NCBI RefSeq assembly: GCF_000380645.1
Contig: NZ_AQXZ01000017.1
Location: forward strand, 372,001 to 436,000
Direction of reading: 5' to 3'
Length of the DNA: 64,000 nt
DNA from: Smaragdicoccus niigatensis DSM 44881 = NBRC 103563
Lineage (GTDB): Bacteria; Actinomycetota; Actinomycetes; Mycobacteriales; Mycobacteriaceae
In this document: positions 15,054 through 63,564 of the stretch, in pieces
Layout of the letters: each line of letters begins with the position of its first letter
How positions within the stretch are numbered: the first letter of the stretch is position 1
The notes under the pieces: model-generated
Told to the model about the DNA's origin: nothing
The model's input: only the letters and a program-made list of their open reading frames with translations
Database searches by the model: none
Position numbers and translations under genes: made by a program

Positions 15054-15086
15054 CGAATACCTCCAACGGCATTGTCAAAGCGTTTC

Positions 15087-15106: not shown

Positions 15107-15144
15107 GGTTGCCAACATGGCAATGAGCGCGCGACGATGTTCGC

Positions 15145-15474
15145 ATGGTGAAACTGATTGGCCTCATACGTCGGCGCCCCGAAATCGAGCTGGCGGAGTT
15201 CTACCGAATCTGGCGCGAAGATCTGCCGCCGCGAGTGAAGAAACTTCCCGGCCTACGCGCGTACCGGCAGAACCATGCAGTCCCGCGCGCGAAAGGCTGG
15301 CCCTGGGACGGTGTGGCCGAACTCTGGTTCGACGACCGTGATGCGGTCGGCCAAGCCCTCGCCAGTCCGGCCGGCGTCGACCTGATCGCTTTCGAACGCA
15401 CCTTCATTGGTGAAACCGAGGTCCTCATCGCGCAAGAGCACGAGGTCTGGGAAGAACGTGATTTACCTAGCTAA
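15145..15474 (+). CDS. EthD family protein
   Basis: 109 aa, a single ferredoxin-fold alpha/beta-barrel domain of the EthD type (KLIGLIRRRPEIELAEFYRIWREDLPP at the N-terminus, ending with a conserved hydrophobic strand around FERTFIGETEVLIAQEHEV). EthD proteins are required for P450 systems such as the ethyl tert-butyl ether monooxygenase and are frequently found beside oxygenases, though the reaction is not established. Divergent from the BVMO/P450 operon and just upstream of a TetR regulator. No strong ribosome site is seen. Confidence 0.82.
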   Translation: MVKLIGLIRRRPEIELAEFYRIWREDLPPRVKKLPGLRAYRQNHAVPRAKGWPWDGVAELWFDDRDAVGQALASPAGVDLIAFERTFIGETEVLIAQEHEVWEERDLPS

Positions 15475-15494
15475 ACATCCAGATGTCTGACGTA

Positions 15495-15504
15495 TTCGGA
15501 TACG
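15495..15504. promoter_or_regulatory. Half-copy of the shared promoter motif before the TetR gene
   Basis: TTCGGATACG is the exact complement of the CGTATCCGAA half of the 15087 motif and sits 8 nt before the ATG at 15513. With the preceding CGTAT it also forms an inverted repeat CGTAT-tcgg-ATACG. Suggests autoregulation. Confidence 0.45.
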
Positions 15505-15512
15505 GTTTATTC

Positions 15513-16124
15513 ATGGCCAAACGTCTTACTCGTGCGGAGAGTCAGGAGCGCACCCGCGGCGCTCTCGTTGAGGCGGCCACCAAGCTGTTCCTGCGAGACG
15601 GATTCAAGGCGACATCGCTCGATCAGGTTGCTGAGGAGGCGGGTTACACCCGCGGCGCGGTGCACAGCAACTTCGAAAGCAAAGCGGAGTTGGGTGCCGC
15701 GGTTCTCGACGATATGTATCGAAAAGCGGCCGACAGTGCGGCGGAGACTCTGCGTGCCAGCGGACTCGACGACCTCGGCAAGGTGGTCGCGACGCTCTCG
15801 CAGTGGGTGCAGATAGCGATTGGTGCTCCGCAATGGATTCGCCTCGAGATGGAGGTTGCCGGTGCGAGTGCCTACAACGACGAGACGAAGGCGGCTACCG
15901 CAAAACGGGTCGGGTACATGCGCGAGATGGCAAGCGCGGTGTTTGCCGAGGCTGCCGAGAAGTCTGGATCGCAACTACTGCTGACTCCCGATGAGACGGC
16001 ACTCGTCGTCCTCAGCATCGCGTTGGGTCTGGGATTCCAAACCGCCGCCGATTCCTCGATCTCGGCAGAGGTGCTACAGACGGCCATCAGTCGCGCCCTT
16101 GGACTGCCCTCGCCAGTGGGGTAG
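15513..16124 (+). CDS. TetR family transcriptional regulator
   Basis: 203 aa from the ATG at 15513; an in-frame ATG at 15483 would place the motif at 15495 inside the gene, so the later start is preferred. HTH at about residues 25-60 (FLRDGFKATSLDQVAEEAGYTRGAVHSNFESKAEL). C-terminal ligand domain of uncertain specificity. It lies among the BVMO operon, EthD and aldehyde dehydrogenase genes, all of which carry the shared 20-nt promoter motif, so it is the best candidate regulator of these units and of the divergent pair at 25.4 kb. Confidence 0.88.
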   Translation: MAKRLTRAESQERTRGALVEAATKLFLRDGFKATSLDQVAEEAGYTRGAVHSNFESKAELGAAVLDDMYRKAADSAAETLRASGLDDLGKVVATLSQWVQIAIGAPQWIRLEMEVAGASAYNDETKAATAKRVGYMREMASAVFAEAAEKSGSQLLLTPDETALVVLSIALGLGFQTAADSSISAEVLQTAISRALGLPSPVG

Positions 16125-16148
16125 TCGGTTGTGGCCAAAGTTCCCCAT

Positions 16149-16168
16149 TTCGGATACCTTCAACCTCT
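16149..16168. promoter_or_regulatory. Shared promoter motif, copy 2 (reverse orientation)
   Basis: The complement reads AGAGGTTGAAGGTATCCGAA, 18 of 20 positions identical with the copy at 15087. Located between the TetR stop and the aldehyde dehydrogenase promoter. Confidence 0.6.
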
Positions 16169-16221
16169 AGATGTCCACCGGTGCTAGAGGTTGTTGACAT
16201 CTCGACGGTGTCGTCTATCTG
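16161..16221 (+). promoter_or_regulatory. Inverted repeat and likely promoter of the aldehyde dehydrogenase gene
   Basis: A perfect 10-bp inverted repeat CAACCTCTAG (16161-16170) / CTAGAGGTTG (16184-16193) abuts a consensus -35 TTGACA (16194-16199). A TATCTG -10-like hexamer follows after 16 nt (16216-16221). The predicted transcript start would be within about 10 nt of the ATG at 16236, so the message may be nearly leaderless; no ribosome site is seen before that ATG. Confidence 0.5.
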
Positions 16222-16235
16222 AAATGTGGTGCACA

Positions 16236-17756
16236 ATGACCGAAATCATCGCTGAGCTGCAACTGCCCGTCCTCAGTCCGCTGACGCGTACTGCCACCGG
16301 ATTCGTCCCAGAGTCGACTCCAGAGCAGGTTGCCGCAATCGTCGCAAGCCTGCGCGACCACCAACCGGATTGGGCCGCACTCGGGGTCGCTGGTCGCGCC
16401 GCGTGGGTAGCCAAGTATCGAGACTGGTTGCTGGACAACCAAGACCACATCGCGGACCTCCTCCGCTCAGAGACCGGTAAGCCGCGGGCTGAAGCGGTGT
16501 TCGAAGTGCCCTTCGTCGTGGACGAACTGAACTACTACGCGAACAATGCGGCGAAGTTCCTCGCCGACGAGCATCCCCGTCCGCACGGTCTCATGACCGC
16601 GGGCCGCCGGATGACTGTCCGCTACGTACCGCACCAGGTCGTCGGCGTGATCAGCCCGTGGAACTTCCCGATCGCGTTGACCCTGTGGGATGCCATTCCC
16701 GCGCTGTTGGCGGGTGCAGCGGTCATCGTCAAGCCGTCCGAGCACACCCCGCTCGCCGTCCACTACGTGTTGAAGGGGTGGGAGGAAATCGGCGCGCCGC
16801 CAGTGTTCGCATTCGCGGGCGGCGCTGGCGCGACCGGCGCCGCGGTCGTCGACAACGTCGACTTCGTGCAGTTCACCGGCTCGACTCGCACTGGCCGGGC
16901 CATCGCCGAACAGGCTGGCCGGCGGCTCATTCCGTACAGCCTCGAACTCGGCGGCAAGGACCCGGCCATCGTCGCCGCGGACGCCGATCTCGACTACGCG
17001 GCCTCCGGCATCGCCTTCGGCGCGCTGCTGAACTCTGGCCAGATGTGCGTGTCCACCGAGCGGATCTACGTCGAGGAATCGGTCCACGACGAATTCGTCG
17101 ACAAACTCGTCGCGCAGGTTTCGGCACTGCGTCAAAACGGCGAAAGCGGCTTTGAGACCGATCTCGGTCCGCTGATCACCGACGAGCAATTCACGATCGT
17201 CGAGAAGCATGTCGCTGATGCGATCCACCGTGGCGCGGTGGTGAAGACCGGCGGAAAACCTGGCCTGGCACCGGGATTCTTCGAACCCACGGTGCTGACC
17301 AACGTCGATCACTCAATGCTCGTCATGCGAGAGGAAACGTTCGGTCCGATCCTGCCCGTCATGCGGGTGCGCGACATCGATCACGCGGTCGAACTGGCCA
17401 ACGACTCCGTTTATGGGTTGGGGGCCACGGTATGGACGGCGAGCACTAAGCGCGGCAAAGAGATCGCGCAGCGCCTCGAAGTCGGTGCGGTCGACGTCAA
17501 CGACACCTCAGCTGCCCATCTGATCTGCTTCCCGGCACCCTCGACCGGATGGAAATCCTCCGGCATCGGCGGGCGATTCGGCATCGACGGGATTCGCAAG
17601 TACTGCAAGGTCCGCTCCGTCGTGTCTTCCGTACCCGGTACCGCGGCCGCCGTCCAGATGGCCTGGTTCCCTTATACCGCTGCGCGCAGCAAAGCCTTCG
17701 GCGTCTTTATGCGCTTCACGGGAGGCCGCGACATTCGGCGTCGGCTGGGCATCTGA
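16236..17756 (+). CDS. Aldehyde dehydrogenase family protein
   Basis: 506 aa from the ATG at 16236; an alternative ATG is at 16224. NAD(P)-dependent oxidation of an aldehyde to the acid: PWNFPIAL and FTGSTRTG cofactor segments, general base E237 (ELGGKDP) and nucleophile C271 (NSGQMCVSTERIYV). Closest in type to succinate-semialdehyde-like dehydrogenases and to the paralogue at 42492-44045. A C-terminal extension of roughly 30 residues follows the usual end. Followed by an acyl-CoA ligase 46 nt on, which would activate the acid produced. Confidence 0.92.
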   Translation: MTEIIAELQLPVLSPLTRTATGFVPESTPEQVAAIVASLRDHQPDWAALGVAGRAAWVAKYRDWLLDNQDHIADLLRSETGKPRAEAVFEVPFVVDELNYYANNAAKFLADEHPRPHGLMTAGRRMTVRYVPHQVVGVISPWNFPIALTLWDAIPALLAGAAVIVKPSEHTPLAVHYVLKGWEEIGAPPVFAFAGGAGATGAAVVDNVDFVQFTGSTRTGRAIAEQAGRRLIPYSLELGGKDPAIVAADADLDYAASGIAFGALLNSGQMCVSTERIYVEESVHDEFVDKLVAQVSALRQNGESGFETDLGPLITDEQFTIVEKHVADAIHRGAVVKTGGKPGLAPGFFEPTVLTNVDHSMLVMREETFGPILPVMRVRDIDHAVELANDSVYGLGATVWTASTKRGKEIAQRLEVGAVDVNDTSAAHLICFPAPSTGWKSSGIGGRFGIDGIRKYCKVRSVVSSVPGTAAAVQMAWFPYTAARSKAFGVFMRFTGGRDIRRRLGI

Positions 17757-49678: not shown

Positions 49679-49906
49679 TTAGTGTCGCGTGAACACGACG
49701 CGGCAGACCGTCTTCTCCGGAACGTGGATGACGCTGCCGGGACGAGCTGGATAGGTCTTCTTGCCGATGATGATGTCGTGGGCCGGAATCGTGGTGCAGA
49801 CCTTCGTGGCCTTCGCGGATGCCGGCGCGGACGAGAGCAGTGAAACGCCGATCGCGGTGGCGACAACTCCAAGCACCATTCGTCGGGCGGTCGTCGTCTT
49901 CCCCAT
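49679..49906 (-). CDS. Small secreted two-cysteine protein (copy 1)
   Basis: 75 aa from the ATG at 49906 with GAGAGG upstream. N-terminal signal peptide (basic start GKTTTARR, hydrophobic core VLGVVATAIGVSLL, cleavage likely after PASA). The mature part of about 45 residues has two cysteines, KVCTTIPAHD near its start and KTVCRVVF near its end. It is clearly homologous to the protein at 52465-52797: [VI]CxT[IL]PAxD, then GxK, YPxR, H and CxV in the same order. Divergent from a DUF4012 gene. I do not recognise a named family. Confidence 0.8.
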   Translation of the reverse strand: MGKTTTARRMVLGVVATAIGVSLLSSAPASAKATKVCTTIPAHDIIIGKKTYPARPGSVIHVPEKTVCRVVFTRH

Positions 49907-49959
49907 GGCCAACCTCTCACTAATTCGCTGCCGGACCGGTGTCCTCGGCAGCAATAAAG

Positions 49960-49968
49960 TATCAAACC
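49960..49968. promoter_or_regulatory. Promoter-like element conserved in both DUF4012 modules (copy 1)
   Basis: TATCAAACC (complement GGTTTGATA) lies 54 nt upstream of the small secreted gene start here and 50 nt upstream in the second module (52847-52855). On the - strand both continue with an AT-rich stretch that could hold the -10 of the small gene. Confidence 0.4.
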
Positions 49969-50058
49969 GTGGCTAAACTTGCGCACCGGAGAGGCGCCAT
50001 ATCCCGCTTATCTGCTGTTTGAAAGTGGTAATTCATTCAATCGACTGACAGGGCAATA

Positions 50059-51795
50059 GTGGTTGTGAGTCCGCGTAAGCGTGTTTTGCTCGTAATTCTT
50101 GCTGGGTTCACCGTATTCGTGGGCTGGTTCGTATGGAACCTGCTTGACGCGAAGTCGTCGCTCGAATCGGTTCGCAGCCACGTCCTGTCCGCGCGGGAAG
50201 CGATCTCGCATGGCGACTCGAAAACCGCGAAGTCGGATGCCGAGCAGGCGCGCTCGGCAGCGGCTGATGCACAGTCTTCACTCGGCTCTTTGCCGTGCCG
50301 AATAGTTGCTGGTATCCCGTTCGTGGGCTCACCGGTCGTCGCCGCCACCGGCATTTCGGACACGGTGTCAGCAGTGACGAACGACGTTTTGCCCCACCTC
50401 ATCGACGCCGGCGAGGCGATCGACCTCGATCACCTGCGCCTACCGGGGGGTGGCCTTGACGTAGAGCGGCTGTCACGTGCAAGAGAACCGCTCAATGCGG
50501 CAGTTCACGCGATGGACAACGTGCGGGCCCTGGCGGCGGAGATCCCTAGCGCGCGGTTCGCTCCGCCCGTCGAAGATGCTCGCGCGAAGCTTCGCGAACA
50601 GGTTGCCGAGCTTGACTCCCTCCTCTCGAACTCCGAGCGCGCTGCTCAGTTGGTGCCATCGATGCTCGGCGGAAGCGGCGAACGCGTCTACTTCGTGGCC
50701 TTCCAGACCAACGCTGAATTGCGCGGCACTGGCGGCTTTATCGGTGGTACGGCATTGTTGCGAGCCAATAATGGGCGGGTTTCCATCGACCGTCTCGGCA
50801 GTAATCGAGAATTGAAGGCGCTCGACTGGGGAATTGATCTGGGCCCCGATTTCAATGGCCTTTACGGCGATTTGGAATCGACCAAGATGTGGTACAACTC
50901 GAATGTCAGTCCGCATTTCCCGTACGCCGGTCAGATTTGGCAAGACATTGCGCGCAAAGAATGGGCAACGGATATCGACGGCGCCATCGCGGTGGACCCC
51001 GTCGCACTGAGCTACCTGCTGAAGGCGACCGGGCCCATCACGCTCGCGAGCGGCGAGGAAGTCACCAGCGACAACGTGGTCAAGCTCACGGAATCTGATG
51101 TATACGAGCGGTTTCCGACTGATCAGACGGCGCGGAAGGAGTTCCTGACGACGATCGCGGCGGCTGTGCTCGAGAAGTTGGCTGCGGGAAATGGAAGCTT
51201 GCCGGCAATCCTGGAAGGCGTCGGTAAGGGCGTCAGCGAAAACCGTGTGATGGTGTGGAGTTCACATCCTGAAGAGCAGAAGGTTCTCGAACAAACTCCA
51301 CTCGCTCACGCGGTGCCGGAGACCGCTTCACCCTATGCGAACGTGACCATCATCAATTCTGCGCCAAGCAAACTCGACTATTACTTGCGGCGTGAGCTGA
51401 GTTACACCGCCGAGAGTTGTACAGACAATCGTCGGAAAAGCAGCGTCGCCGTCAAGTTGACCAACACCGCGCCAGACAATCTGCCGGACTACGTCGATCA
51501 AATCGAGGGAGTCGAAGGTCCGCCCGGGACGAATGTGGAAACGATCTATCTGCACGCTACGACCGACTCTGAACTGAAGGCGGTGTCGATCAACGGTGTC
51601 TCGGTTCTCGACACGATCGGTCGAGGTGCCGAACGTGGGCACCCGGTCTATTTCTTGACGGTTGTTCTGTTTCCGAACGAGCCCATTGACGTGAGGTTCG
51701 AGCTGTCCGAGCCGTCGAGTAAGGGCGCACCGACGTTGGCCGTGCAACCCCTCGTGGACAACGGCACGAAGCGAGTGGACGTCCCCGCGTGCTGA
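50059..51795 (+). CDS. DUF4012 domain membrane-anchored protein (copy 1)
   Basis: 578 aa, GTG start (GTG at 50065 also possible). One N-terminal transmembrane helix (about residues 9-28), then a large extracellular DUF4012 region. Highly conserved segments with the paralogue at 52895: PCRIVAG, FQTNAELRGTGG, NSNVSPHFPYAGQIW, AIAVDPVALSYLL, and SKLDYYLRREL. The protein ends in a cysteine (DVPAC). Three cysteines (PCR, SCTD, terminal AC) recur in the paralogue. DUF4012 proteins are found in polysaccharide loci, but their activity is unknown. Followed by a DUF4333 lipoprotein. Confidence 0.9.
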   Translation: MVVSPRKRVLLVILAGFTVFVGWFVWNLLDAKSSLESVRSHVLSAREAISHGDSKTAKSDAEQARSAAADAQSSLGSLPCRIVAGIPFVGSPVVAATGISDTVSAVTNDVLPHLIDAGEAIDLDHLRLPGGGLDVERLSRAREPLNAAVHAMDNVRALAAEIPSARFAPPVEDARAKLREQVAELDSLLSNSERAAQLVPSMLGGSGERVYFVAFQTNAELRGTGGFIGGTALLRANNGRVSIDRLGSNRELKALDWGIDLGPDFNGLYGDLESTKMWYNSNVSPHFPYAGQIWQDIARKEWATDIDGAIAVDPVALSYLLKATGPITLASGEEVTSDNVVKLTESDVYERFPTDQTARKEFLTTIAAAVLEKLAAGNGSLPAILEGVGKGVSENRVMVWSSHPEEQKVLEQTPLAHAVPETASPYANVTIINSAPSKLDYYLRRELSYTAESCTDNRRKSSVAVKLTNTAPDNLPDYVDQIEGVEGPPGTNVETIYLHATTDSELKAVSINGVSVLDTIGRGAERGHPVYFLTVVLFPNEPIDVRFELSEPSSKGAPTLAVQPLVDNGTKRVDVPAC

Positions 51796-51848
51796 GCTTT
51801 GACCGAATATCCTGACGGGACGCATTTGCGTGTTGTGAAAGGGCGGCA

Positions 51849-52409
51849 ATGAGATTCAGGGGAGCGCTCGCCATCGGTCTGTCGGTGGTGGCCGTCGGCG
51901 CCTGTTCGTCGCCGACACCGGAAGTTTCGCGCGAATCCTTGGAGCACCAGCTCTTTGACAAGCTGACAGCTGCTCTCGGCTACAAGCCACAGTCGGTGAC
52001 CTGTCCCGGCGGACTCACAGCGGTGAAGGGCACGAAGCAGACCTGCACGATGAAGAACGACGGCGTCGACTACCACGTTGTCGTGACCGCGTCCGAGGTG
52101 AAGGGCGACAAGGTTTCCTTCGACGTCAGCATGAGCGGTGAGCCCGTCCAGGAGCCTGGAAAGCCGATCGACGGACCCATGATCGGAAAGGCGGAACTGG
52201 TCGATGCGGTCACCGAATTTGCGCAGTCTCAGGATGGCAAGGCGCCGGACCGTGTCGTCTGCCCGGAAGACCTGCCGGTCAAGCTCGACGCGAGTGTCAC
52301 CTGCTACCTGCACGAGGGCCGTGATGTCTTCGACGTTTCGGTGAGGGCGACGAAGGTCGAGGGTGTTGACGTGGAGTTCGAGATCGGGATTTCCGCCAAG
52401 CCGCGATAG
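51849..52409 (+). CDS. Lipoprotein with two DUF4333 domains (copy 1)
   Basis: 186 aa. Signal peptide with lipobox VGAC, lipidated C19. Two repeats of a DUF4333-type domain follow, each with a cysteine pair: VTCPGGL/TCTMKNDGVDYHV and VVCPEDL/TCYLHEGRDVFDV. Expected on the outer face of the membrane. AAAGGGCGG precedes the ATG. A 53-nt gap from the DUF4012 gene holds ACCGAATATCCTG, also present before the second lipoprotein gene, so an internal promoter is possible. Function unknown. Confidence 0.9.
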   Translation: MRFRGALAIGLSVVAVGACSSPTPEVSRESLEHQLFDKLTAALGYKPQSVTCPGGLTAVKGTKQTCTMKNDGVDYHVVVTASEVKGDKVSFDVSMSGEPVQEPGKPIDGPMIGKAELVDAVTEFAQSQDGKAPDRVVCPEDLPVKLDASVTCYLHEGRDVFDVSVRATKVEGVDVEFEIGISAKPR

Positions 52410-52418
52410 GTGCGAAGA

Positions 52419-52460
52419 CGACTGTGGCCGGACTCCTCAAGAGCCCGGCCACAGTTGTCG
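52419..52460. terminator. Bidirectional hairpin between the two DUF4012 modules
   Basis: Stem ACTGTGGCCGG (52421-52431) and CCGGCCACAGT (52445-52455) with further inner pairing (CTC/GAG). It begins 9 nt after the lipoprotein stop (+) and ends 4 nt before the stop of the second small secreted gene (-), so it can terminate both. Confidence 0.75.
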
Positions 52461-52464
52461 AAAC

Positions 52465-52797
52465 CTAGCTGACGTTCGCGAATCCGCTGAAGGTGATGCG
52501 GCCCAGGTTGAAGTTGAACGGCGGGTGGTTGAAGGGCGGGTTCACGTTCACGCTGCCGGAGCCCGTCGAGGTGAACGGCAGGGTGACGTGACAGAACGTT
52601 CGGGCCCGCAGATGCATGTGGAAGCGGTAGCGCGGGGGATAGCCCTTCTTAGGGCCCATGTGGAAGTCCATGGCAGGCAGGGTGTTGCAGATCCGGTTGA
52701 AATCGGCTGACGCAGGCGGTGCGGTCACGACGGCGCTACCCACCGCGATCGTGGCGGCGGCCAGGCCAATTCGAAGGGCGTTCGTCATTGTCTTCAT
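52465..52797 (-). CDS. Small secreted two-cysteine protein (copy 2)
   Basis: 110 aa from the ATG at 52797 with AGAGG upstream. Signal peptide with core IGLAAATIAVGSAVVTA and cleavage after PASA. Mature part starts DFNRICNTLPAMDFHMGPKK, continues YPPRYRFHMHLRARTFCHVTL, aligning with copy 1, and then has a C-terminal extension of about 35 residues rich in N, P and F (NVNPPFNHPPFNFNLG) that copy 1 lacks. Position relative to the DUF4012 gene is the same as in module 1. Function unknown. Confidence 0.8.
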   Translation of the reverse strand: MKTMTNALRIGLAAATIAVGSAVVTAPPASADFNRICNTLPAMDFHMGPKKGYPPRYRFHMHLRARTFCHVTLPFTSTGSGSVNVNPPFNHPPFNFNLGRITFSGFANVS

Positions 52798-52846
52798 CAA
52801 TGCACCTCTTGGAATCCCGGCTCTGCCGCGGTCTGCTTAGATAATC

Positions 52847-52855
52847 TATCAAACC
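52847..52855. promoter_or_regulatory. Promoter-like element conserved in both DUF4012 modules (copy 2)
   Basis: TATCAAACC, identical to 49960-49968 and at nearly the same distance from the small secreted gene start. The complement continues into an AT-rich GATTATCTAA stretch. Confidence 0.4.
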
Positions 52856-52894
52856 CGACTATTCTTGACTAGGGCATACCGATAAGTTTGTTTC

Positions 52895-54679
52895 ATGCTT
52901 GGTGTCGAGTTGGAAAAGCGACCTGCCCACGCTGTGGAGCGTGAATCAGGCAGTCCACGTAAACGCATATTGATCATGGTTTTGAGTGCCTTATGCGTTT
53001 TCGCTGCGTGGCTTGCCTGGAACCTTTACACTGCCAAATCCTCCCTGGAGGCAGTGCGTGCGCACGTGGTCGCGGCGCGCTCGGCGATCGTGAACGGTGA
53101 CGAATCCGCAGCCGAGGCGCAGGCTCGCGCAGCCGGCGAAGCGGCCACGAACGCACGCGACGCACTGCGGTCGACCCCTTGCCGAATAGTTGCCGCGGTT
53201 CCGTTCTTTGGCGATCCGCTCGATGCCCTCGAAGGCATTTCAGATACCGTCTCAAGCCTTACTGATGGCGTTATGCCACATCTTGTCGCTGCTGGTCGCG
53301 TGCTCAACCTCGATCAATTACGGCTGGTGGGAGGTGGTTTAAACGTTGATCAGCTTTCGCGCGCGCACCAGCCAATTGCAGAAGCGGTCGCGGCAATGGC
53401 GAATGTTCGCGTCGCCGCCGCCAAAATCCCCGATGCGCGTTTTGTATCTACTGTGAATGACGTCCGCGACCAACTTCGCAAACAAGTAGCAGAGCTGGAC
53501 GAAGTGCTGGTCAACGCAGGTATGGCCACCCAGCTGGCGCCGTCGATGCTGGGGGCACACGGAGATCGCGTGTACCTCGTGGCATTTCAGACGAATGCTG
53601 AATTGCGGGGGACCGGAGGTCTCCTCGGTGGTACCGCGCTGCTGAAGGCGACGGCCGGAAATATTTCGATCGACCGCCTCGCGCAGAATTACGATCTGGG
53701 AAGTGTTTCTCAAGGTATCGAATTAGGTCCGGAATTTGACCAGCTTTACGGCGAAATGGAGGCGACTTCCCTCTGGTCGAATTCCAATATCAGTCCGCAT
53801 TTCCCTTATGCGGCCAAAATCTGGCGAGACATGGCGCAAAAGAATTGGAAGACAAATGTTGACGGGGTGATCGCTGTCGACCCGGTCGCGCTGAGCTACG
53901 TGCTGGCCGCGATTGGTGAAGTCACGTTGCCCAACGGTGAGAAGGTGACCAGTCAGAACGTCGTCCATCTGACCGAGTCAGAGGTGTACGACCGCTTCCC
54001 GACGGATCAGCTGGCCCGCAAGAAGTTCCTCACGGTCATCGCCTCCTCCGTCTTCAACAAACTCGCCGCGGGCGGGGGCCGTCTGCCCACCCTCATCGAA
54101 GCGGCAGGCAAGGCTGCCAACGAACACCGCCTGATGATCTGGAGCGCACACGACGACGAGCAGAAGGTCCTCGAGCAGACGTCGCTCGGCCACCAGATAC
54201 CAGAGACTGGTGCCCCCTATGCCAACGTCACCGTGATCAACTCTGGTCCAAGCAAGCTCGACTATTACCTGCGCCGCGACCTGGCGTACACGGCCGGCGA
54301 CTGCAAAGACGGTCGGCGGGACAGCCAAGTCAGTGTCACACTCACCAATACCGCGCCGGGCAACCTTCCGGACTACGTCGACAAGATCATCGGATTCAAC
54401 GGTCCGAAGGGGACGAACGTCGTCACGGTCTACCTGTATGCGACCGACGGTGCCGAACTGACGTCGATTACCCGGGATGGAGACCCGGTGACCGAGGCGA
54501 TTGGTGAGGGCGTCGAGCGTGGCCACCCTGTGTTCTTCCTCGTCCTCGCGCTCTTTCCCGGAGAGCCGGTCGACCTCGTGTTCAATCTGTCGGAGCCGGC
54601 CGCAAAGGGAACACCGACTCTGGACGTTCAACCGCTCATCGAGAACGGTCCGGTCAAGGTGAGCGTGCCGGCCTGCTGA
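52895..54679 (+). CDS. DUF4012 domain membrane-anchored protein (copy 2)
   Basis: 594 aa, 16 residues longer at the N-terminus than copy 1. Transmembrane helix at about 25-45, preceded by a basic SPRKR. Same extracellular region as copy 1, with PCRIVAAVPF, FQTNAELRGTGG, NSNISPHFPYAAKIW, IAVDPVALSYVLAAIG, SKLDYYLRRDL and DCKDGRR, and a C-terminal cysteine (SVPAC). The two copies look like an old tandem duplication kept under selection. Precedes lipoprotein copy 2 by 86 nt. Confidence 0.9.
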   Translation: MLGVELEKRPAHAVERESGSPRKRILIMVLSALCVFAAWLAWNLYTAKSSLEAVRAHVVAARSAIVNGDESAAEAQARAAGEAATNARDALRSTPCRIVAAVPFFGDPLDALEGISDTVSSLTDGVMPHLVAAGRVLNLDQLRLVGGGLNVDQLSRAHQPIAEAVAAMANVRVAAAKIPDARFVSTVNDVRDQLRKQVAELDEVLVNAGMATQLAPSMLGAHGDRVYLVAFQTNAELRGTGGLLGGTALLKATAGNISIDRLAQNYDLGSVSQGIELGPEFDQLYGEMEATSLWSNSNISPHFPYAAKIWRDMAQKNWKTNVDGVIAVDPVALSYVLAAIGEVTLPNGEKVTSQNVVHLTESEVYDRFPTDQLARKKFLTVIASSVFNKLAAGGGRLPTLIEAAGKAANEHRLMIWSAHDDEQKVLEQTSLGHQIPETGAPYANVTVINSGPSKLDYYLRRDLAYTAGDCKDGRRDSQVSVTLTNTAPGNLPDYVDKIIGFNGPKGTNVVTVYLYATDGAELTSITRDGDPVTEAIGEGVERGHPVFFLVLALFPGEPVDLVFNLSEPAAKGTPTLDVQPLIENGPVKVSVPAC

Positions 54680-54765
54680 TCTCCGGTTCACGTTGATCGC
54701 TGCGCACCGATATCCTTGCAGGGCTCAGTTGCGGGCGAATCGCTCGCGCAGTCGAGAGGAAGCGC

Positions 54766-55320
54766 ATGAAGCTCGGTCGGTTGTTGGTCGCCGCGATCGC
54801 AATGGCCGGTATTGCGGGTTGTACGGCGCAGATCCCGATCGTCGACAAGGACACCCTCGAGAACCAGGTGTTCGAGCGTCTGGCGAAGGAGTGGGGGCAC
54901 AACCCGCAGAAGGTGAAGTGCCCGTCCGCGCTGCGCGGCGAGGTCAAACAGAAGCAGACGTGCGTGGTCACCGACGATGGTGTCGACCACTTGGTGACCG
55001 TGACGGTCGTCAAGGTCGACGGCAAGAACGTCGACTTCAAACTCGACACCGGTGCGCCGCTCAACGCGCCGACGACGCAGCCTGAGGTCTACGTCGGTCG
55101 TGAGGACGTCGCCAAGCAGGTGGCCGAGCAGATCCTGGCCAAGACCGGACGTCCTGCTGACATGGTGAACTGCCCGAACGATCTTCCGGCGGTCGTCGGC
55201 GCCACGACAACGTGCTACATCCATGACGGCTCGGATGTCTACGACGCGGTTGTCACGGTCCGGGAAGTCAGCGGCGACGATGTGAAGTTCGACGTTCAGG
55301 TGGCCGGCGAGCCCCGATAA
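54766..55320 (+). CDS. Lipoprotein with two DUF4333 domains (copy 2)
   Basis: 184 aa. Lipobox IAGC, C19. Two DUF4333-type repeats with cysteine pairs VKCPSAL/TCVVTDDGVDHLV and VNCPNDL/TCYIHDGSDVYDA. GAGAGGAAG precedes the ATG. Paralogue of the lipoprotein at 51849 with the same domain layout. Gap before it holds ACCGATATCCTTG similar to the element before copy 1. A tRNA-Met gene follows 14 nt later. Confidence 0.9.
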   Translation: MKLGRLLVAAIAMAGIAGCTAQIPIVDKDTLENQVFERLAKEWGHNPQKVKCPSALRGEVKQKQTCVVTDDGVDHLVTVTVVKVDGKNVDFKLDTGAPLNAPTTQPEVYVGREDVAKQVAEQILAKTGRPADMVNCPNDLPAVVGATTTCYIHDGSDVYDAVVTVREVSGDDVKFDVQVAGEPR

Positions 55321-55426: not shown

Positions 55427-56263
55427 TCAGGAGAGGCTCCCGAGGCTGTTCAGCAGATCCGAAATCTCGGTGCCGGTATCCGATGGGGGAGTCGCCGCGC
55501 CCTGCGGAGCGGGAGCCGCGGTAGGCGCCGGCGCGGCCGGCGGCGGTGTCGTGCCACCTGTTGGCGCTGGGCTGGGCTCCACCGCGGGGGCCGGCGGGAC
55601 TGGAGTCGAGGTCGTTGGCGTGGGTGCTTGGGGCTTCAAGTACTTGCTGTCGAGGCAGCCAGTCACCCCAAGGTTCCAGCCCTTCAGGTATGAGCCGAGC
55701 CGCTGTTCCGCGGTCCCGTGGTCCTCGGGCCGCGTCGCTGGTCGCGATTCGCCAAGGAAGTCATTGAAGATCTTTTCGGCGGCGGCCCCATCGCTACCTT
55801 CAAGGGCTTTATTGCCCGCCTTGGCGCTCACGCCGAGCACCGCGCCGGAGAGACAGTCAGCGACGAGTTCCACGAAGCCCGACTTCAAATTCTGTTGAAT
55901 CGCATGGCCCCACTCGTGTGCCACCACCTCGTAGATGAACAGATCACCGAGTTGGTCCGCGCGCCCCAAATAGTTTGTGCCGTAGATGATCGTGTGGTCG
56001 TCGTGGCAGTAAATCGAGTCGTTGGTGTCGACGCGTCCGCACGCGGTACTGCCGGACGTCTGGTCGGGTCCGATGACTTTGGGAGGCGTATAGGTGCCTG
56101 CGAAGAAGTCGGAGTAGTGCGCAGCCCAGTACTTGCTGACCAAATCCACTGCGGACGAGTACACCGTCTGCATGTCCGGAGTCATCGCCGCGGCGTGGCC
56201 GACTCCGGACGAGGCGATCGCGATAGCGACCGCCGCACCCGCGGAAACTCCTAGTTTCCTCAT
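55427..56263 (-). CDS. Secreted neutral zinc metallopeptidase (YpfJ-like)
   Basis: 278 aa. Signal peptide at residues 1-25 (AAVAIAIASSGVGHAAA). Peptidase domain with the zinc motif HEWGH (H116, E117, H120) and ELVADC as third-ligand region, plus GRVDTNDSIYCHDDHTIIY typical of putative neutral zinc metallopeptidases (PF04228 type). From about residue 215 the tail is rich in proline, alanine and threonine (PTPTTSTPVPPAPAVEP), a likely wall-spanning linker, ending in DLLNSLGSL. Substrate unknown. Confidence 0.88.
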   Translation of the reverse strand: MRKLGVSAGAAVAIAIASSGVGHAAAMTPDMQTVYSSAVDLVSKYWAAHYSDFFAGTYTPPKVIGPDQTSGSTACGRVDTNDSIYCHDDHTIIYGTNYLGRADQLGDLFIYEVVAHEWGHAIQQNLKSGFVELVADCLSGAVLGVSAKAGNKALEGSDGAAAEKIFNDFLGESRPATRPEDHGTAEQRLGSYLKGWNLGVTGCLDSKYLKPQAPTPTTSTPVPPAPAVEPSPAPTGGTTPPPAAPAPTAAPAPQGAATPPSDTGTEISDLLNSLGSLS

Positions 56264-56530
56264 GACTCCCCCTGGGACACGCAGGCCGATTGATAGCTCA
56301 TCGTGTTCAACCGGATGAAAGAGGGCGCCCGGATTGCCCTGATCGAAATCGAATGCCGCCGCGGCTTGACTGATCGTTATCGTGTCGCGACTTGAGTTGG
56401 GTCTTGGTGCCGAGGAGATAACGCAGCCGTTCGGCGCGCCCTACCAAGATCACGTTTGCGGTTGATCACCGAACAAAGGCGATATTTCAGGTTGCCGGAT
56501 GCCGACGAGATTGCGTGCTTGAATCTCTGC
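56264..56530. other. 267-bp divergent intergenic region
   Basis: Separates the zinc peptidase (-) from the DUF3558 lipoprotein (+) and should contain both promoters. Short frames here lack ribosome sites and family features. No strong repeat is seen. Confidence 0.4.
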
Positions 56531-57103
56531 ATGTCCTTGCCGGGAAGAGCCTTGGCGGCCCTATTGGTTGCGACTGCGATCTCCGCATGCACGCACCCGT
56601 CGCCGACTTACGAACCAGGGGCGAACGATCCGGCCGATGAGTCGTTTGTCCCGTCGACGGCGTCACAGATCAAGCCCAGGATTCATCTGCCGGACCCCTG
56701 CAACATCTCGCATAACGTCTTGCAGAAAGCGGGGCTGAAGAATTTCTGGAAGCGCCCCGTGCCGCGAGACAGCATCGCGGGCCCAGGGAAGACGGTCAAG
56801 GCGACCCAGTGTCGCTACTACGTCATCGACAATCCGGATCTGCGCGTGGCGATCGACTTCCGTGCGCAGGACACACAGTCCTTGGTGGACGGTTTCAACG
56901 GCTTCCTGTTCCAGCCAACCGAAATTGCCGGCCGAAAGGCATTCCTTCGTCCTGCGCTCGGCAATCAGGTGTGCGGTGTCATCACCGACTTCAAGTTCGG
57001 ACTGATGCTCGTTCTCGTTTACAACGACCAGCAGGCGCACTGCGATCAAGCGAAGGCCATCGCGACCGCAGTGGAGCCCTGGTTCAAGCAGTGGGAGCGT
57101 TAG
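56531..57103 (+). CDS. DUF3558-type lipoprotein
   Basis: 190 aa from the ATG at 56531; upstream in-frame ATG at 56456 would put 25 residues before the signal peptide. Signal peptide ALAALLVATAISAC with lipobox ISAC (lipidated C near residue 20). The mature part has DPCNISHNVLQKAGL, QCRYYV and CGVITDF cysteine positions typical of DUF3558 lipoproteins of mycolate actinomycetes. Function unknown, cell-envelope location. Convergent with the LuxR-type gene, 4-nt overlap of ends. Confidence 0.82.
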   Translation: MSLPGRALAALLVATAISACTHPSPTYEPGANDPADESFVPSTASQIKPRIHLPDPCNISHNVLQKAGLKNFWKRPVPRDSIAGPGKTVKATQCRYYVIDNPDLRVAIDFRAQDTQSLVDGFNGFLFQPTEIAGRKAFLRPALGNQVCGVITDFKFGLMLVLVYNDQQAHCDQAKAIATAVEPWFKQWER

Positions 57104-58278: not shown

Positions 58279-58515
58279 ATGAGGTCAACGATTAGCCGTG
58301 GGCTTGCCGCGCTTGGAGTGGCTGGGCTACTTGTCGTGAGCATCGCAGGCGGTCAGGGAACCGCCTCGGCGAACCGCCACGACCACGACCCGGTCTACAG
58401 CGACGCCTGCCGAGACAATGAGAACTACTTCCACGTCGGTGCGTGGTACTGGCTCCCGGGTTACTGGGATGGCCGGCACTGGCACGACGCGCACTGGATC
58501 TGGTGCGTGCCGTAG
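58279..58515 (+). CDS. Small secreted His/Trp-rich protein
   Basis: 78 aa. Signal peptide (core LAALGVAGLLVVSIAGG, cleavage near TASA). Mature part of about 47 residues contains two cysteines (DACRD, WCVP) and a run of aromatic and histidine residues (FHVGAWYWLPGYWDGRHWHDAHWIW). The H/W pattern resembles small YXWXXGXW-type envelope proteins, but I cannot assign a family. Metal binding is possible. Stands alone between the SRPBCC-HTH gene and the convergent sortase-like gene. Confidence 0.7.
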   Translation: MRSTISRGLAALGVAGLLVVSIAGGQGTASANRHDHDPVYSDACRDNENYFHVGAWYWLPGYWDGRHWHDAHWIWCVP

Positions 58516-58533: not shown

Positions 58534-59181
58534 TCACGCGAGGGCGGCGAAGACAACGACGTTTTCGTCGGTCTCCATCACGGACAGGTCGGCCTGACCT
58601 CCACACGTGATGAGGGCCAAGCGAGCGTTGCTTGGTTGTGCGTTCAGCGTGTTCACCAGCGCATCCGGGTCTCGCTTGGAGATGCCCGTTTTCACCGAGA
58701 TGACCTTGAATCTCACGCGTTGCGAGGCGTCGGGGCTCTCGACGGTGATCTCGTCGCCGGCCTTGAGATCTTTGATGTTGTTGAAGACCCCGAAGCCCCC
58801 GCCGAACTGCGCGTGACCCAGAACGACAGCCATGGCGTCGCTCCCGATCTTCGGCCCGTCTGACCACCACGCGGTGTGCGTCATGTCTGGCGGGACGCCG
58901 AAGCTCTGGACCTCTTTTCCGCCCAAGAAGGGATCTGGCGAGACTTCGGTCGGCAGCGACATCATCGGTGAGTTCACGTCGATCGCGGGAATGTACAGCT
59001 GACCAGGATCGATCGGTTCGTGGGTAACCGGCACCGCTGAGGTGTTGGAGGGTCGAGCGGCGGCAGAGGCGTCGCCGACTGGAACTGTCCCGCTAGTGCC
59101 CGAATCGCCGCAGCCCGTGGTGAGGGCTGCGGCGATTGCGGATACTGCGAGAGCTTGGAGAAACCTAGCGTGCGGTCGCAC
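58534..59181 (-). CDS. Sortase-like protein (class E/F type)
   Basis: 215 aa from a GTG at 59181 (a TTG at 59193 adds 4). N-terminal hydrophobic segment ending TTGC looks like a lipobox, then a sortase domain: LYIPAIDVNSPMM, catalytic H123 (VLGHAQFGG) and C193 (LITCGG). Sortases also need an arginine C-terminal to the cysteine; the remaining 22 residues contain no Arg, only DENVVVF at the usual place. It may be inactive or use another residue. The gene for a probable substrate lies directly upstream, overlapping by 17 nt. Confidence 0.8.
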   Translation of the reverse strand: MRPHARFLQALAVSAIAAALTTGCGDSGTSGTVPVGDASAAARPSNTSAVPVTHEPIDPGQLYIPAIDVNSPMMSLPTEVSPDPFLGGKEVQSFGVPPDMTHTAWWSDGPKIGSDAMAVVLGHAQFGGGFGVFNNIKDLKAGDEITVESPDASQRVRFKVISVKTGISKRDPDALVNTLNAQPSNARLALITCGGQADLSVMETDENVVVFAALA

Positions 59182-59563
59182 GGCGTACGGCAACTCCGCC
59201 CAAGGCCGTTGCAGCGGCCAGCGTGATCAGGACGATGCCCGAGTCCGAGGAGTTCGGAACCGAGATCGAGCCAGTCTTGGACTGCGTCGGGTAGGTGGTG
59301 GTCTTAGCAGCAGGTGCGGCAGGCTTCGACTCATCCGTCTTGTCCGTGTCGCAAGGTGCGTCGCCACGGTGGTGGTCGGCGTCGTCACCGTGGTGGTCGG
59401 CTTCGCCGGCGTCCCCGCGGTGCTCAGCGGTTGCGGCGTAGTCATCGCCGTCATCGTGGTGGTGGCCGCCGCCTGCTGAAGCGATGCCAGGCATTGCCAA
59501 AGCTGCGGCGATGGTGATTGCCGCAGTGCCTGCGGCCATACGGAACTTGCGATTCAGCGACAT
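59165..59563 (-). CDS. Secreted His/Asp-rich protein with C-terminal membrane anchor
   Basis: 132 aa. Signal peptide (AAITIAAALAMPGIASA), then a region of His and Asp clusters (GGGHHHDDGDD, EADHHGDDADHHRGD), a linker with one cysteine, and a C-terminal hydrophobic segment followed by RRATAR. This is the layout of a sortase substrate, but there is no LPxTG; the residues before the helix are SVPNSSDSG. The acidic/His stretch may bind metal. Located just upstream of the sortase-like gene, so probably its partner. Confidence 0.75.
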   Translation of the reverse strand: MSLNRKFRMAAGTAAITIAAALAMPGIASAGGGHHHDDGDDYAATAEHRGDAGEADHHGDDADHHRGDAPCDTDKTDESKPAAPAAKTTTYPTQSKTGSISVPNSSDSGIVLITLAAATALGGVAVRRATAR

Positions 59564-59777: not shown

Positions 59778-60272
59778 TTAGTCGTGAATCCGGTCCACGA
59801 CGACGCGCGTCAAGTCGAGGATTCTCGTTGCGGCCGACTGGAATTCGGCGTACGGATGGCCCATCGGATCGAGGATGTCCTCGTTGGGTTCAGCCGTCGA
59901 AAATGGGCGTGCGGAGTGCAGGTCAGCGACCGTCTCGGCGTCTTGGTCATGGATCAATCGAACCGCTTCGGACAGCGTGAACGTGCGGCGGAATGCGGTC
60001 GGGCTGGTCAAGAGGACGCTGTCGCGGTGCACGGTTGTCATCGCGAGAACGAGGTCCGCCTCGGCGATGACGGCGGGCGTCACGCGTCGAGAGGCAAACC
60101 CGCTCGGGTCGCCTCCGAGCTCGACGAGTGCCTCGGCCGCGGAGGTGACCATGGGCCGACCTTGAAGAGCGCGAGTTCCGGCGCTGACCGCATCTGCCCC
60201 GAGCATTCGTGCGAGTCGCTCGGCGACGGGGGACCTGCATTCATTTGCGGTACAGACGAACAGGATTCGCAT
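59778..60272 (-). CDS. Low molecular weight protein tyrosine phosphatase
   Basis: 164 aa. Catalytic P-loop C-x5-R at the start (FVCTANECRSP, C7 and R13) and the general-acid region DILDPMG near residue 135. Such Wzb-type phosphatases dephosphorylate the tyrosine-rich tail of the BY-kinase of polysaccharide export systems. The kinase gene lies 3 nt upstream, which supports that pairing. Confidence 0.9.
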   Translation of the reverse strand: MRILFVCTANECRSPVAERLARMLGADAVSAGTRALQGRPMVTSAAEALVELGGDPSGFASRRVTPAVIAEADLVLAMTTVHRDSVLLTSPTAFRRTFTLSEAVRLIHDQDAETVADLHSARPFSTAEPNEDILDPMGHPYAEFQSAATRILDLTRVVVDRIHD

Positions 60273-60275
60273 TCT

Positions 60276-61652
60276 CTACTTGTCGTGTTTGGCCCTCCTG
60301 GGCGCCTTTGTGTACGCGTAAGAGTAGCCGTAGTAGGCGTCCCCCCGGCGACTTGGGGACATCGTGATGATCGCGCCAAGCACCCGAGCGTTGACGGCGC
60401 GCAGGTTGTCGACGGCGCGTTCGAACTGATCACGCTTCGTCTTGCCGTGGCGAGCGATCACGAGGGCGCCGTCGGCGGCACTCGCCAGAATCGCCGCGTC
60501 GGTGACGGGGAGGACCGGGGGAGCGTCGATGATCACGAAGTCGAACATCTGGCGCAGCTTCTCGATCGTTGACCTGGCCGTCTCGGAACCAAGCAGCTCG
60601 CTCGGGTTCGGTGGGATCGGGCCTGCCGCAAGGACCTGCAAGCTGCTGCTGGTGCCTTGAATGACATCGTCGAGCGAAGCCTGATGGGCCAGAACGTTAC
60701 TGAGTCCCACGGTGCCGACGACGTTCAGGTACTTCGTTGCGATGGGGCGACGGAGGTCGCCCTCGAGCAGGAGAACCTTGTGGCCGCCTTCGGCGAGTGC
60801 GAGAGCGAGGTTGATCGCCGTCGTGCTCTTGCCCTCGGCCGGCATCGAACTCGTGATGACGATCGCGCGCGGGGGATTGTCGACATCCAGGAATTGCAGG
60901 TTCGTCCGGAGTGAGCGGAATGACTCGGCGCTCGGACTTGACTCGTCAGCGAATCGGATCGCTGCAGACTTCTGGCGGTTCTTGTCGAAGGGGATGGTGC
61001 CGACGAGGCCGGTTTCGCCGAGGTCCTCGACCGTTGAACGGTCCTTCACGGTGTTGTCGAGGCGGTCGCGGAGAAGCGCGCCACCGATGCCGAGAAGGAG
61101 GCCGAGGATGGCGCCGAGGGCGACGTTGCGGGTGGTCGCCGGAAGAATCGGTCCGCTAGGAGCTTCCGCGCGCTGCTCCACGACGACTCGTGAAGTCGGG
61201 TTGCCACCGCTGGTGGGTGTCTCGAGTTCCTTCACGAACGCGGCGAATTCGTCGGACAAGCCGTTTGCGATGTCGGCCGCTCGAGCGGGATTCGTGTCGT
61301 TCACGTGGACGTTGATGAGGACGGTGTTCGGGGCCGCCTCGGCGGTCACGTTGGCCGCCAACTCGTCCGGTGACATGTCCAAGTGGAGGCGGTCGATCGT
61401 CCGCTTTGCGAGGGAGCTGCCAGTCAGGAGCTGCGTGTAGGACAACACGCGCTCTTGGCTGTAGAGCGTTCCCTGGTAGGCGTCGTTGATGTCGGCAGAC
61501 GCCGACGTCGAAACGAATAGGCGGGTGGACGCCTGGTAGACGGGCGTCGTCGTCAGTGAGTATGCGAGGGCGGCAAGGATCACTACAGCAGTCGTGACAG
61601 CGACACTTATCCAGCGCATTCGAAGGATGCGCAGGTAGTCCCTAAGTTCCAA
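60276..61652 (-). CDS. Polysaccharide co-polymerase / BY-kinase (Wzz-Wzc type fusion)
   Basis: 458 aa. N-terminal Wzz domain with membrane helices at about 14-32 and 177-194, an external loop between them, then a cytoplasmic BY-kinase domain: Walker A SSMPAEGKSTTAIN (K275), Walker A' LLLEGDLRRP, Walker B FVIIDAPP. The C-terminus has a tyrosine cluster (DAYYGYSYAYTK) for autophosphorylation. It controls chain length or export of an exopolysaccharide. Operon with the phosphatase, divergent from the glycosyltransferase genes. Confidence 0.92.
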   Translation of the reverse strand: MELRDYLRILRMRWISVAVTTAVVILAALAYSLTTTPVYQASTRLFVSTSASADINDAYQGTLYSQERVLSYTQLLTGSSLAKRTIDRLHLDMSPDELAANVTAEAAPNTVLINVHVNDTNPARAADIANGLSDEFAAFVKELETPTSGGNPTSRVVVEQRAEAPSGPILPATTRNVALGAILGLLLGIGGALLRDRLDNTVKDRSTVEDLGETGLVGTIPFDKNRQKSAAIRFADESSPSAESFRSLRTNLQFLDVDNPPRAIVITSSMPAEGKSTTAINLALALAEGGHKVLLLEGDLRRPIATKYLNVVGTVGLSNVLAHQASLDDVIQGTSSSLQVLAAGPIPPNPSELLGSETARSTIEKLRQMFDFVIIDAPPVLPVTDAAILASAADGALVIARHGKTKRDQFERAVDNLRAVNARVLGAIITMSPSRRGDAYYGYSYAYTKAPRRAKHDK

Positions 61653-62055
61653 TTCACTCTTCCTTGGTTGCTGCAGTGAGTTCCTCAGTCAAAGAAGAGG
61701 ACCGTGCGAAAGCTTATACGGTGCTGGACTGCGCTAAAGCCTATGAAGGCGATTTGGGAGCGTTTGAGGGCGTCTCGGGCCATCGTGGGCAAAAGTTCAT
61801 TCCATTGACTGACACGCAGGAAAAGTGCGGCGTCAAAGTTACATCTCGCCGGAATAATTACGATCCGAAAAGGTTGAATGCTGAAAGAATTCGGAATCTA
61901 TTGTCTATTGTTTGACTGCGTTTAGCAGTGCCCGCTGTTCGGCAGATCGCCGGCTCTCCAAATTTCCGCGCGCATCGTAACCTTTGATCTCGTCGAGGCG
62001 ACGAATACCAGCAATTGCGGAGAAGCCTTTTCGACAATCTGGACTGGGGAGTGGG
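61653..62055. promoter_or_regulatory. 403-bp divergent promoter region of the exopolysaccharide locus
   Basis: Clearly less GC-rich than the window average, especially 61840-61920. It should hold the promoters of the BY-kinase operon (-) and the glycosylphosphotransferase operon (+) and allows a long leader. Short frames (for example 61664-61915) have no ribosome site or recognisable features and are not called. No clear riboswitch or repeat is seen. Confidence 0.5.
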
Positions 62056-63564
62056 GTGTCAGCTGTGTTCCTTGCCGAGGCACCGACATCATCTTCGGAA
62101 AAAGCCCAGTCATCCCCGGCTGAATCTTTGCCTGCACACCGCAAACGCGACTTCCGAGTGGGACTGTCAGTCGCGGTCGCCCTGACTGACGGCTTCGTCA
62201 TCGCGTTCGCGGTCGCCGCTGCGCATGCGTTTCATTTGTTTGTTCGTGCCGGTGTTGGCTTCGGAACCTGGCGGGAGCCTGCATCCTTTGTGATCGCCTT
62301 GGCTTGGTTTGGGCTGCTGCGATTGGGCGACAATCGCTCGTCGGTGCGGATCGGTGGCCCTGACGACGTGAAGCGGGTGATCACCGCAACGCTGTCGGTG
62401 TTCGGGCTGGCGACGATCGTGACTCTGTTCCTCGCCGTCGACTTCGGTCGAGACCAGCTGATGATTGCGCTTCCGCTCGGACTCTTCGGATTGTTGCTGT
62501 CTCGGTTTGGATGGCGGGTTGGCATTCACCGATTCCACGCGCATGGCGTACTGCGGACCCCCGTGCTTGTTGTCGGCAACGCTGAGTCGGCGAGAAACTT
62601 GGCAACCGTCCTCGATGGCGACGTGATCGGCGAATACCGCGTCGCGGGTCTGTACCTCGTCGGAGATGCGCGTCCGTCAGTTCTGGACTGGTCCCAGCGC
62701 GAACTGGTGCCTGTCTACTGGGGTACCGACGACGGCATCATTCGCGCTGTCGAGGAGTGCGGAGCCCGCGCAGTCGCCGTCACCGCATCCGAGCACCTGG
62801 CGCCGGAATTCATCCGCCAGCTGACGTGGAGTCTCGAAGAACACGACGCTCAGCTCATCGTTAGTCCTGGAGTGACCGACGTAGCGCTTCCTCGCATGTT
62901 GCTGCGATCGATCGGAAATGTGCCGCTGCTCTACGTCGAGCCACCCCGGCACTCCCGAGCAAACCGGCTTGGCAAGGCACTGTTCGATCGGTTGTTCGCC
63001 CTTGTGGCATTAACCATCGCTTCGCCGCTGATGATTGCCATTGCCATCGCCATCAAGCTGACGAGTCGCGGCTCGGTGTTCTACTGCTCGGAGCGCATCG
63101 GGGTGTCTGGCCGACCGTTCCAGATGATCAAGTTCCGATCGATGTTTCACGGTGCTGACAAGCAGGTCTTCTCCGTGATCGATGCACATGGCGGTCATCG
63201 CGATCAATTGCTGTTCAAACTTCAGAACGACCCGCGCGTAACGAAACTCGGTCGAGTGCTCCGTCGCTTGAGCGTCGACGAACTTCCGCAGTTCCTGAAC
63301 GTGCTGAAGGGCGACATGAGTGTCGTCGGGCCGAGACCGCCGCTAGGACGTGAGGTTGCGGTCTACACGCCAGACATGCGCCGCCGGCTTCTCGTGAAGC
63401 CTGGCGTCACCGGATTGTGGCAAGTCAGCGGGCGTTCAAACCTCACGGTCGAGCAGGCGATGCAGCTCGATCAGTACTACGTCGACAACTGGTCCATGGG
63501 ATTCGACGTGGCGATCATCTGCAAGACATTCCGTGCGGTTCTTAGCCGCCACGGCGCGTACTGA
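62056..63564 (+). CDS. Exopolysaccharide polyprenyl glycosylphosphotransferase (WcaJ/CpsE-like)
   Basis: 502 aa from a GTG at 62056 with GGGGA upstream; the frame is open from 61984 (TTG). N-terminal multi-helix membrane part (about residues 35-160), a CoA-binding-like middle domain (VLVVGNAESARNLATVL), and a C-terminal bacterial sugar transferase domain: KALFDRLFALVALTIASPLMIAIAIAIK, RIGVSGRPFQMIKFRSM, RRLSVDELPQFLNVLKGDMSVVGPRPP and KPGVTGLWQVSGRS. It transfers a sugar-1-phosphate to undecaprenyl phosphate, the first step of repeat-unit assembly. Confidence 0.92.
   Translation: MSAVFLAEAPTSSSEKAQSSPAESLPAHRKRDFRVGLSVAVALTDGFVIAFAVAAAHAFHLFVRAGVGFGTWREPASFVIALAWFGLLRLGDNRSSVRIGGPDDVKRVITATLSVFGLATIVTLFLAVDFGRDQLMIALPLGLFGLLLSRFGWRVGIHRFHAHGVLRTPVLVVGNAESARNLATVLDGDVIGEYRVAGLYLVGDARPSVLDWSQRELVPVYWGTDDGIIRAVEECGARAVAVTASEHLAPEFIRQLTWSLEEHDAQLIVSPGVTDVALPRMLLRSIGNVPLLYVEPPRHSRANRLGKALFDRLFALVALTIASPLMIAIAIAIKLTSRGSVFYCSERIGVSGRPFQMIKFRSMFHGADKQVFSVIDAHGGHRDQLLFKLQNDPRVTKLGRVLRRLSVDELPQFLNVLKGDMSVVGPRPPLGREVAVYTPDMRRRLLVKPGVTGLWQVSGRSNLTVEQAMQLDQYYVDNWSMGFDVAIICKTFRAVLSRHGAY

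Follow-up and report, generated by a model that had tools for sequence, protein, structure and literature searches.

Two homologous units beside an exopolysaccharide locus

The window considered here, a stretch of 64,000 nucleotides from the genome of Smaragdicoccus niigatensis DSM 44881 (5.3 Mb in 19 contigs), carries two consecutive units, each composed of a gene for a small secreted protein on the minus strand, then a DUF4012 gene and a gene for a lipoprotein with two DUF4333 domains, both on the plus strand (Table 1). The six open reading frames lie at the positions, and in the order, strands and spacing, that a preliminary description of this DNA had given, and the anatomy and neighbourhood of the units can be taken with high confidence. 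DUF4012 (PF13196) passes the Pfam cut-off in both copies (143.7 and 149 bits against 28), as does DUF4333 (PF14230) in both lipoproteins, with two stretches in each (78.9 and 75.7 bits against 27). Judging from the model of copy b, DUF4012 copy a would consist of an N-terminal transmembrane helix, a helical stalk, an LCP-like domain and a C-terminal beta domain. SP1 has no Pfam match and likely starts at Met17 of its reading frame; the true starts of both small proteins probably lie within the listed frames.

Table 1. Features of the window (positions counted from its first nucleotide)
Feature	Position	Strand	Basis
Small secreted protein 1 (SP1); CTTIPAHD motif	49679..49954	-	Signal-peptide pattern by eye
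DUF4012 copy a, 578 aa	50059..51795	+	Pfam E 7e-42; 61% to copy b
Double-DUF4333 lipoprotein a; lipobox VGAC	51849..52409	+	Pfam
Small secreted protein 2 (SP2); CNTLPAMD motif	52465..52800	-	BLASTP to SP1
DUF4012 copy b, 594 aa; predicted LCP-like domain at about residues 223-430	52895..54679	+	Pfam E 2e-43; AlphaFold2; Foldseek
Double-DUF4333 lipoprotein b; lipobox IAGC	54766..55320	+	Pfam; ortholog of sister-species lipoprotein (82%)
Class-F-like sortase, distinct clade	58534..59193	-	Sortase Pfam E 1e-13; NCBIfam class F E 1e-23; tree
Putative sortase-anchored small surface protein; YPTQSKTG	59165..59563	-	Sequence features, no family match
Low-molecular-weight tyrosine phosphatase (Wzb-like)	59778..60272	-	NCBIfam
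Wzc-type polysaccharide co-polymerase / tyrosine autokinase	60276..61652	-	TIGR01007 E 2e-52, over cut-off
Initiating sugar-phosphate transferase (Bac_transf)	61984..63564	+	Pfam PF02397 E 3e-65

Each part is homologous to its counterpart in the other unit, as had been claimed. By BLASTP, the DUF4012 proteins are identical at 348 of 575 positions (61%), the lipoproteins at 36% over 168 residues (E 7e-40) and the small proteins at 37% over 71 residues (E 5e-14). The small proteins have the CxTxPAxD motif in common, SP2 carrying in addition an extended tail rich in Asn, Pro and Phe, and the cysteines of the lipoproteins outside the lipobox align (C52, C66, C136 and C150 of copy b), which bears out the two-domain, four-cysteine layout. 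The term 'tandemly duplicated', used in the preliminary description, holds insofar as two homologous units stand side by side, but not in the sense of a recent duplication: because a repeat finder detects between them, at the DNA level, one 114-nt stretch only (75% identical), we read it as two old, diverged units.

The envelope and exopolysaccharide (EPS) setting that had been proposed is visible in the genes of the locus, where phosphatase, Wzc and sugar transferase follow one another. The interval that separates the DUF4012 units from the sortase (55427-57103) holds a DUF3558 lipoprotein and a secreted protein of the Zn-peptidase family whose tail is rich in Pro and Ala; the DUF3558 frame has no match in the sister-species contig described below, where a different frame fills the same interval. 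Just downstream of the sortase gene, and convergent with it, is a small secreted-looking frame of 78 aa, rich in His, Trp and Tyr (58279-58515, plus strand).

Distribution and history of the units

Retention of all three parts in both units had suggested a single extracellular machine. A neighbourhood survey of 121 genomes of the family does not uphold this view as a general one. DUF4012 is present in 51 of these genomes, about 40%, and DUF4333 in 104, and among the 59 DUF4012 genes examined three have a DUF4333 neighbour: the two of the window and one in the single other species of the genus compared (G001, contig JAJFUQ010000210.1, a Nocardiaceae MAG). There is none at the 52 loci read outside the genus, nor beside the four remaining DUF4012 copies within it. 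At the 57 loci besides the window the flanks read reached about 8 kb at most, and at ten of them one side fell short of 3 kb; searching these loci with a lipoprotein profile returned a neighbour in G001 only, and a profile of the small proteins had no match in the other 120 genomes of the family, that is, it is found in this genome only. Outside the genus DUF4012 thus occurs without either partner, the very finding that the preliminary description had named as refuting, and an obligatory three-gene machine is rejected; the grouping is a local speciality of the genus.

G001 has one unit, at the same place as the two described here. Its genes run metallo-beta-lactamase, small secreted protein (minus strand), DUF4012, DUF4333 lipoprotein, Zn-peptidase and LuxR, followed by anchor, sortase, low-molecular-weight phosphatase and Wzc. 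The same succession of small secreted protein, DUF4012 and lipoprotein is therefore seen in all three units of the genus, and this genome retains every part in both copies, as one would expect if the three proteins formed one dedicated extracellular machine. Yet such a machine appears improbable, since no DUF4012 read outside the genus has this neighbourhood, the family commonly carries double-DUF4333 lipoproteins away from the DUF4012 neighbourhoods covered, and the histories of the parts are discordant. The G001 lipoprotein is 82% identical to lipoprotein b and 33% to lipoprotein a, which has no counterpart in G001; the G001 DUF4012 is 51-53% identical to copies a and b alike; and the small protein in the equivalent slot is unrelated in sequence to SP1 and SP2.

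The age of the units can be gauged from synonymous distances (NG86). Between DUF4012 copies a and b the value is about 2.2, which is saturated and rules out a recent duplication. Across all DUF4012 comparisons, G001 included, it ranges from 1.6 to 2.2, whereas sortase, LuxR, Zn-peptidase and lipoprotein b differ between this genome and G001 by 0.33-0.69. Because the DUF4012 distances far exceed those of neighbouring genes, the units either diverged long before the species split or were exchanged. In the tree copies a and b are sisters (SH-aLRT 98), with the G001 copy outside. Old gene conversion could be the reason for this closer resemblance; a mosaic, or recent conversion, was discarded, nucleotide identity being 55-73% throughout with no high-identity window. 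The parts of the units do not have one simple common history.

The lipoproteins resemble other Mycobacteriales DUF4333 lipoproteins in having a lipobox and a pair of DUF4333 domains, each with two cysteines, and differ from them in lying beside DUF4012, here and in the sister species only. In the present genome DUF4333 is matched eleven times, in about seven genes. An NCBIfam family labelled anti-apoptotic protein (NF052486) matches both lipoproteins below its cut-off (E 8e-34 and 1e-31). An AlphaFold2 model of lipoprotein b (pLDDT 87) predicts two like domains, each a single helix lying against four strands; its best, if weak, PDB match is a multicystatin (probability 0.80, E 0.06). Because of this match a role in binding rather than catalysis is suggested for the modelled protein. 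A BLIP/BamE-like fold, which had been guessed for DUF4333, is absent from the matches.

At other loci the company of DUF4012 consists of polysaccharide genes, to which a subset adds an anchor protein and a sortase. As antisense reading frames in high-GC DNA make the clustering of all neighbouring frames noisy, the count was based on marker genes. At 43 of the 57 loci the flanks hold at least one marker of EPS or sortase: sugar transferase at 17, low-molecular-weight phosphatase and a glycosyltransferase (GT) family at 11 each, Wzc at 10, class-F-like sortase at 8 and UDP-sugar dehydrogenase at 7. The genome has five DUF4012 genes, and the three outside the window are similarly placed. One (C17:500k) adjoins a sortase and a sugar transferase, and another (C10:107k) adjoins MMPL, esterase and Wzt/ABC-2 exporter genes. 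The exporter of the latter locus (L041, G000:C10:97000-116900, 9231-17516) is of the ABC polysaccharide type with a Wzt C-terminal domain. At the third (C17:457k; L039, G000:C17:449000-468900, 7407-12854) genes for an inositol phosphatase, an APS kinase/GTPase and a PAPS-reductase-family protein come after DUF4012, a hint of a sulfated glycan.

Predicted fold and conserved residues of DUF4012

AlphaFold2, run on copy b together with 70 relatives, produced a model with mean pLDDT 93.5 and pTM 0.89, comprising an N-terminal helix, a helical region to residue 218, an alpha/beta domain at about 223-430 and a beta domain at 440-594. Among the best 11 PDB matches of this model in Foldseek, eight are LytR-CpsA-Psr (LCP) proteins: 3nxh (YvhJ), the Cps2A entries 3tep, 3tfl, 3tel, 2xxq, 2xxp and 4de8, and 3pe5, which we take to be an LCP protein, its entry title being silent on the point. 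Their E-values range from 8e-4 to 8e-3 at probability 1.00, with TM-scores all below 0.5 (best 0.47, on target). On the strength of this computed structure, DUF4012 very probably has an LCP-like fold.

Chance resemblance between alpha/beta folds, DUF4012 doing something else in EPS loci, must be considered. The low TM-scores and the weak sequence signal would fit it, as would the unrelated folds that reach similar E-values, such as M1 peptidases, although in the model these probably fall on the C-terminal beta domain. Against it speak eight independent LCP entries among the best 11 matches, an order of strands and helices collinear with that of the LCP domain, and a profile alignment (hhalign) which, obtained prior to the structure, has a register that agrees with it; chance is therefore a very improbable account. 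The alignment is collinear over 141 columns and sets D329 on the Asp of the LCP 'VDF', Y365-x-R367 on 'YVR' and D371..R375 on 'DxxR'. On its own the alignment is not significant, also when repeated against 34 LCPs (E 0.018-0.054 over the two runs, one of 60 block-shuffled decoys scoring higher). With PF03816 (LytR-CpsA-Psr) finding no match in the DUF4012 copies at E up to 1, and a PDB sequence search returning no LCP entry, a proof of homology by sequence was abandoned. A search of a viral structure library gave nothing. The genome also has five ordinary LCP genes, which speaks against the ligase role proposed below.

Conservation was followed over 70 DUF4012 sequences, down to 27% identity. 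E236, R238, N298, S300, D329, Y365 and R375 are invariant and K376 is conserved in 69; the Glu, Arg and Asp among them would fit an active site, as far as conservation can tell. In Cps2A the catalytic set is R267, R362, R374, D234 and D246 (PMC7831098), and in Actinomyces oris LcpA the catalytic arginines are R149 and R266 (PMC6381275). R375 lies in the helix after YVRxR, as do Cps2A R374 and LcpA R266 (the profile register being about one residue off), and the YxR arginine is found in 59 of 70 sequences; the latter likely has a counterpart in DUF4012, and the helix arginine may have one. The arginine of the I-P-R-D loop ('PRD'; TagT R118, LcpA R149, Cps2A R267) has no conserved counterpart, the matching column, R261, being Arg in 8 of 70. 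As the LCP catalytic set is mirrored only in part, we call DUF4012 LCP-like, not a member of LCP. Like the LCP transferases (Cps2A, TagT/U/V, Lcp1), it has one N-terminal transmembrane helix, a predicted extracytoplasmic alpha/beta domain with matching element order and conserved Arg and acidic residues, and it is sited in polysaccharide loci; unlike them it lacks the Pfam match and a conserved PRD arginine, its motif E-x-R-G-T-G-G is a different one, and two further parts, the helical stalk and the C-terminal beta domain, are added.

These differences could also mean that DUF4012 kept the LCP fold without being a transferase, binding lipid-linked EPS or the Wzc complex as a scaffold for assembly or length control. 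The poor conservation of an arginine that LCP enzymes need, the additional stalk and beta domains, and the frequent adjacency to Wzc (10 of 57 loci) are in its favour; charged residues invariant over 70 sequences down to 27% identity look rather like catalysis or tight ligand binding. We hold the scaffold to be possible, on balance unlikely.

Sortases, anchored proteins and a proposed role for DUF4012

The partnership of DUF4012 with a sortase and an anchored protein was absent from the preliminary description. In the window, both DUF4012 genes are 4-8 kb from the anchor gene, in the same locus, and this gene overlaps the start of the sortase gene. The anchor protein, without Pfam or NCBIfam match, has a signal peptide, a His/Asp-rich body, YPTQSKTG, a transmembrane segment and an RRATAR tail. 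The sortase is class-F-like, scoring below the class F cut-off (NF033748; 83.5 bits against 166). The same arrangement, a class-F-like sortase with a small secreted protein adjacent to it, is seen at eight of the 57 other DUF4012 loci, hence nine with the window, and the proteins beside these sortases end in [FYW]P[VMT]Q[AS]xTG, a transmembrane segment and a basic tail. In a tree of 66 sequences the nine DUF4012-linked sortases and four others form one clade of 13 (SH-aLRT 99), beside the canonical class F group. A [FYW]PxQ[AS]xTG anchor is found at 11 of the 13 loci (it is absent at L231 and L238), and none with a transmembrane tail was seen outside the clade among the sortase loci read. The window and ten further clade loci thus present the layout of sortase substrates (signal peptide, TG-ending motif, transmembrane segment, basic tail), and these proteins are putative substrates. 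A missing catalytic Arg was discarded as a special trait of the clade, the class F sortases surveyed often lacking it too.

The best explanation we can offer, tentatively and a little short of even confidence, is that DUF4012 is an LCP-like ligase of the polysaccharide made by the locus to a surface acceptor, with the lipoprotein and the small protein as accessories. Chemistry, acceptor and accessory roles we infer as follows. In each unit DUF4012 would do the central work: anchored in the membrane and facing outward, this enzyme of LCP-like fold would take the polyprenyl-pyrophosphate-linked polysaccharide produced by the neighbouring Wzc and sugar-transferase locus and ligate it to an acceptor at the cell surface. 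This acceptor would be wall peptidoglycan or, at loci with a class-F-like sortase, the adjacent sortase-anchored protein (here 59165-59563). Where a nearby sortase is missing, as at the majority of DUF4012 loci, peptidoglycan or another acceptor would have to serve. The lipoprotein, with its two cystatin-like DUF4333 domains, and the divergent small secreted protein would be genus-specific accessories of this DUF4012 lineage, and the two units old, diverged versions. Enzymatic ligation of EPS by DUF4012 seems to us an evenly balanced matter; that the anchor protein accepts the polysaccharide is doubtful.

A precedent exists in A. oris, where the LCP enzyme LcpA glycosylates the sortase-anchored GspA (PMC6381275). 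As in that LcpA/GspA/SrtA system, a protein of LCP fold, here predicted, is genetically linked to a small sortase-anchored protein and a sortase; unlike it, the locus itself encodes the sortase, which is class-F-like, the signal is [FYW]PxQ[AS]xTG, and DUF4012 is the LCP-like member. The transfer of glycan to an anchored protein belongs to A. oris; the parallel drawn here is one of gene order and predicted fold. In the EPS cluster of Bifidobacterium longum 105-A, DUF4012 (BL105A_0406) stands beside the priming transferase and wzz, and, unlike here, neither a lipoprotein nor a small secreted protein nor a sortase is named in the part of the table consulted (PMC5412050). DUF4012 also occurs in CPR bacteria, Cyanobacteria, Chloroflexi and other Gram-positives (PMC6744442). 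A link between DUF4012 and LCP enzymes was not found in the literature searched.

If DUF4012 is an LCP-fold transferase, it becomes a candidate, with named residues, for the missing last step of many EPS loci, surface attachment. The physiological roles of class F sortases are described as unknown (PMC13251363), and the clade with its uncommon sorting signal suggests a hypothesis for them. A wider proposal, speculative and more probably wrong than right, would make DUF4012 a second, sequence-unrecognised LCP branch which, with the class-F-like sortase and its [FYW]PxQ[AS]xTG signal, attaches exopolysaccharide to small anchored carriers, a protein-linked anchoring of the capsule in mycolic-acid bacteria that the lipoprotein and small secreted protein would tune in this genus. 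Next to canonical class F sortases (L198-L227), candidate anchors often end differently, for example in QVPxGGVDTG (L200, L204, L205, L215).
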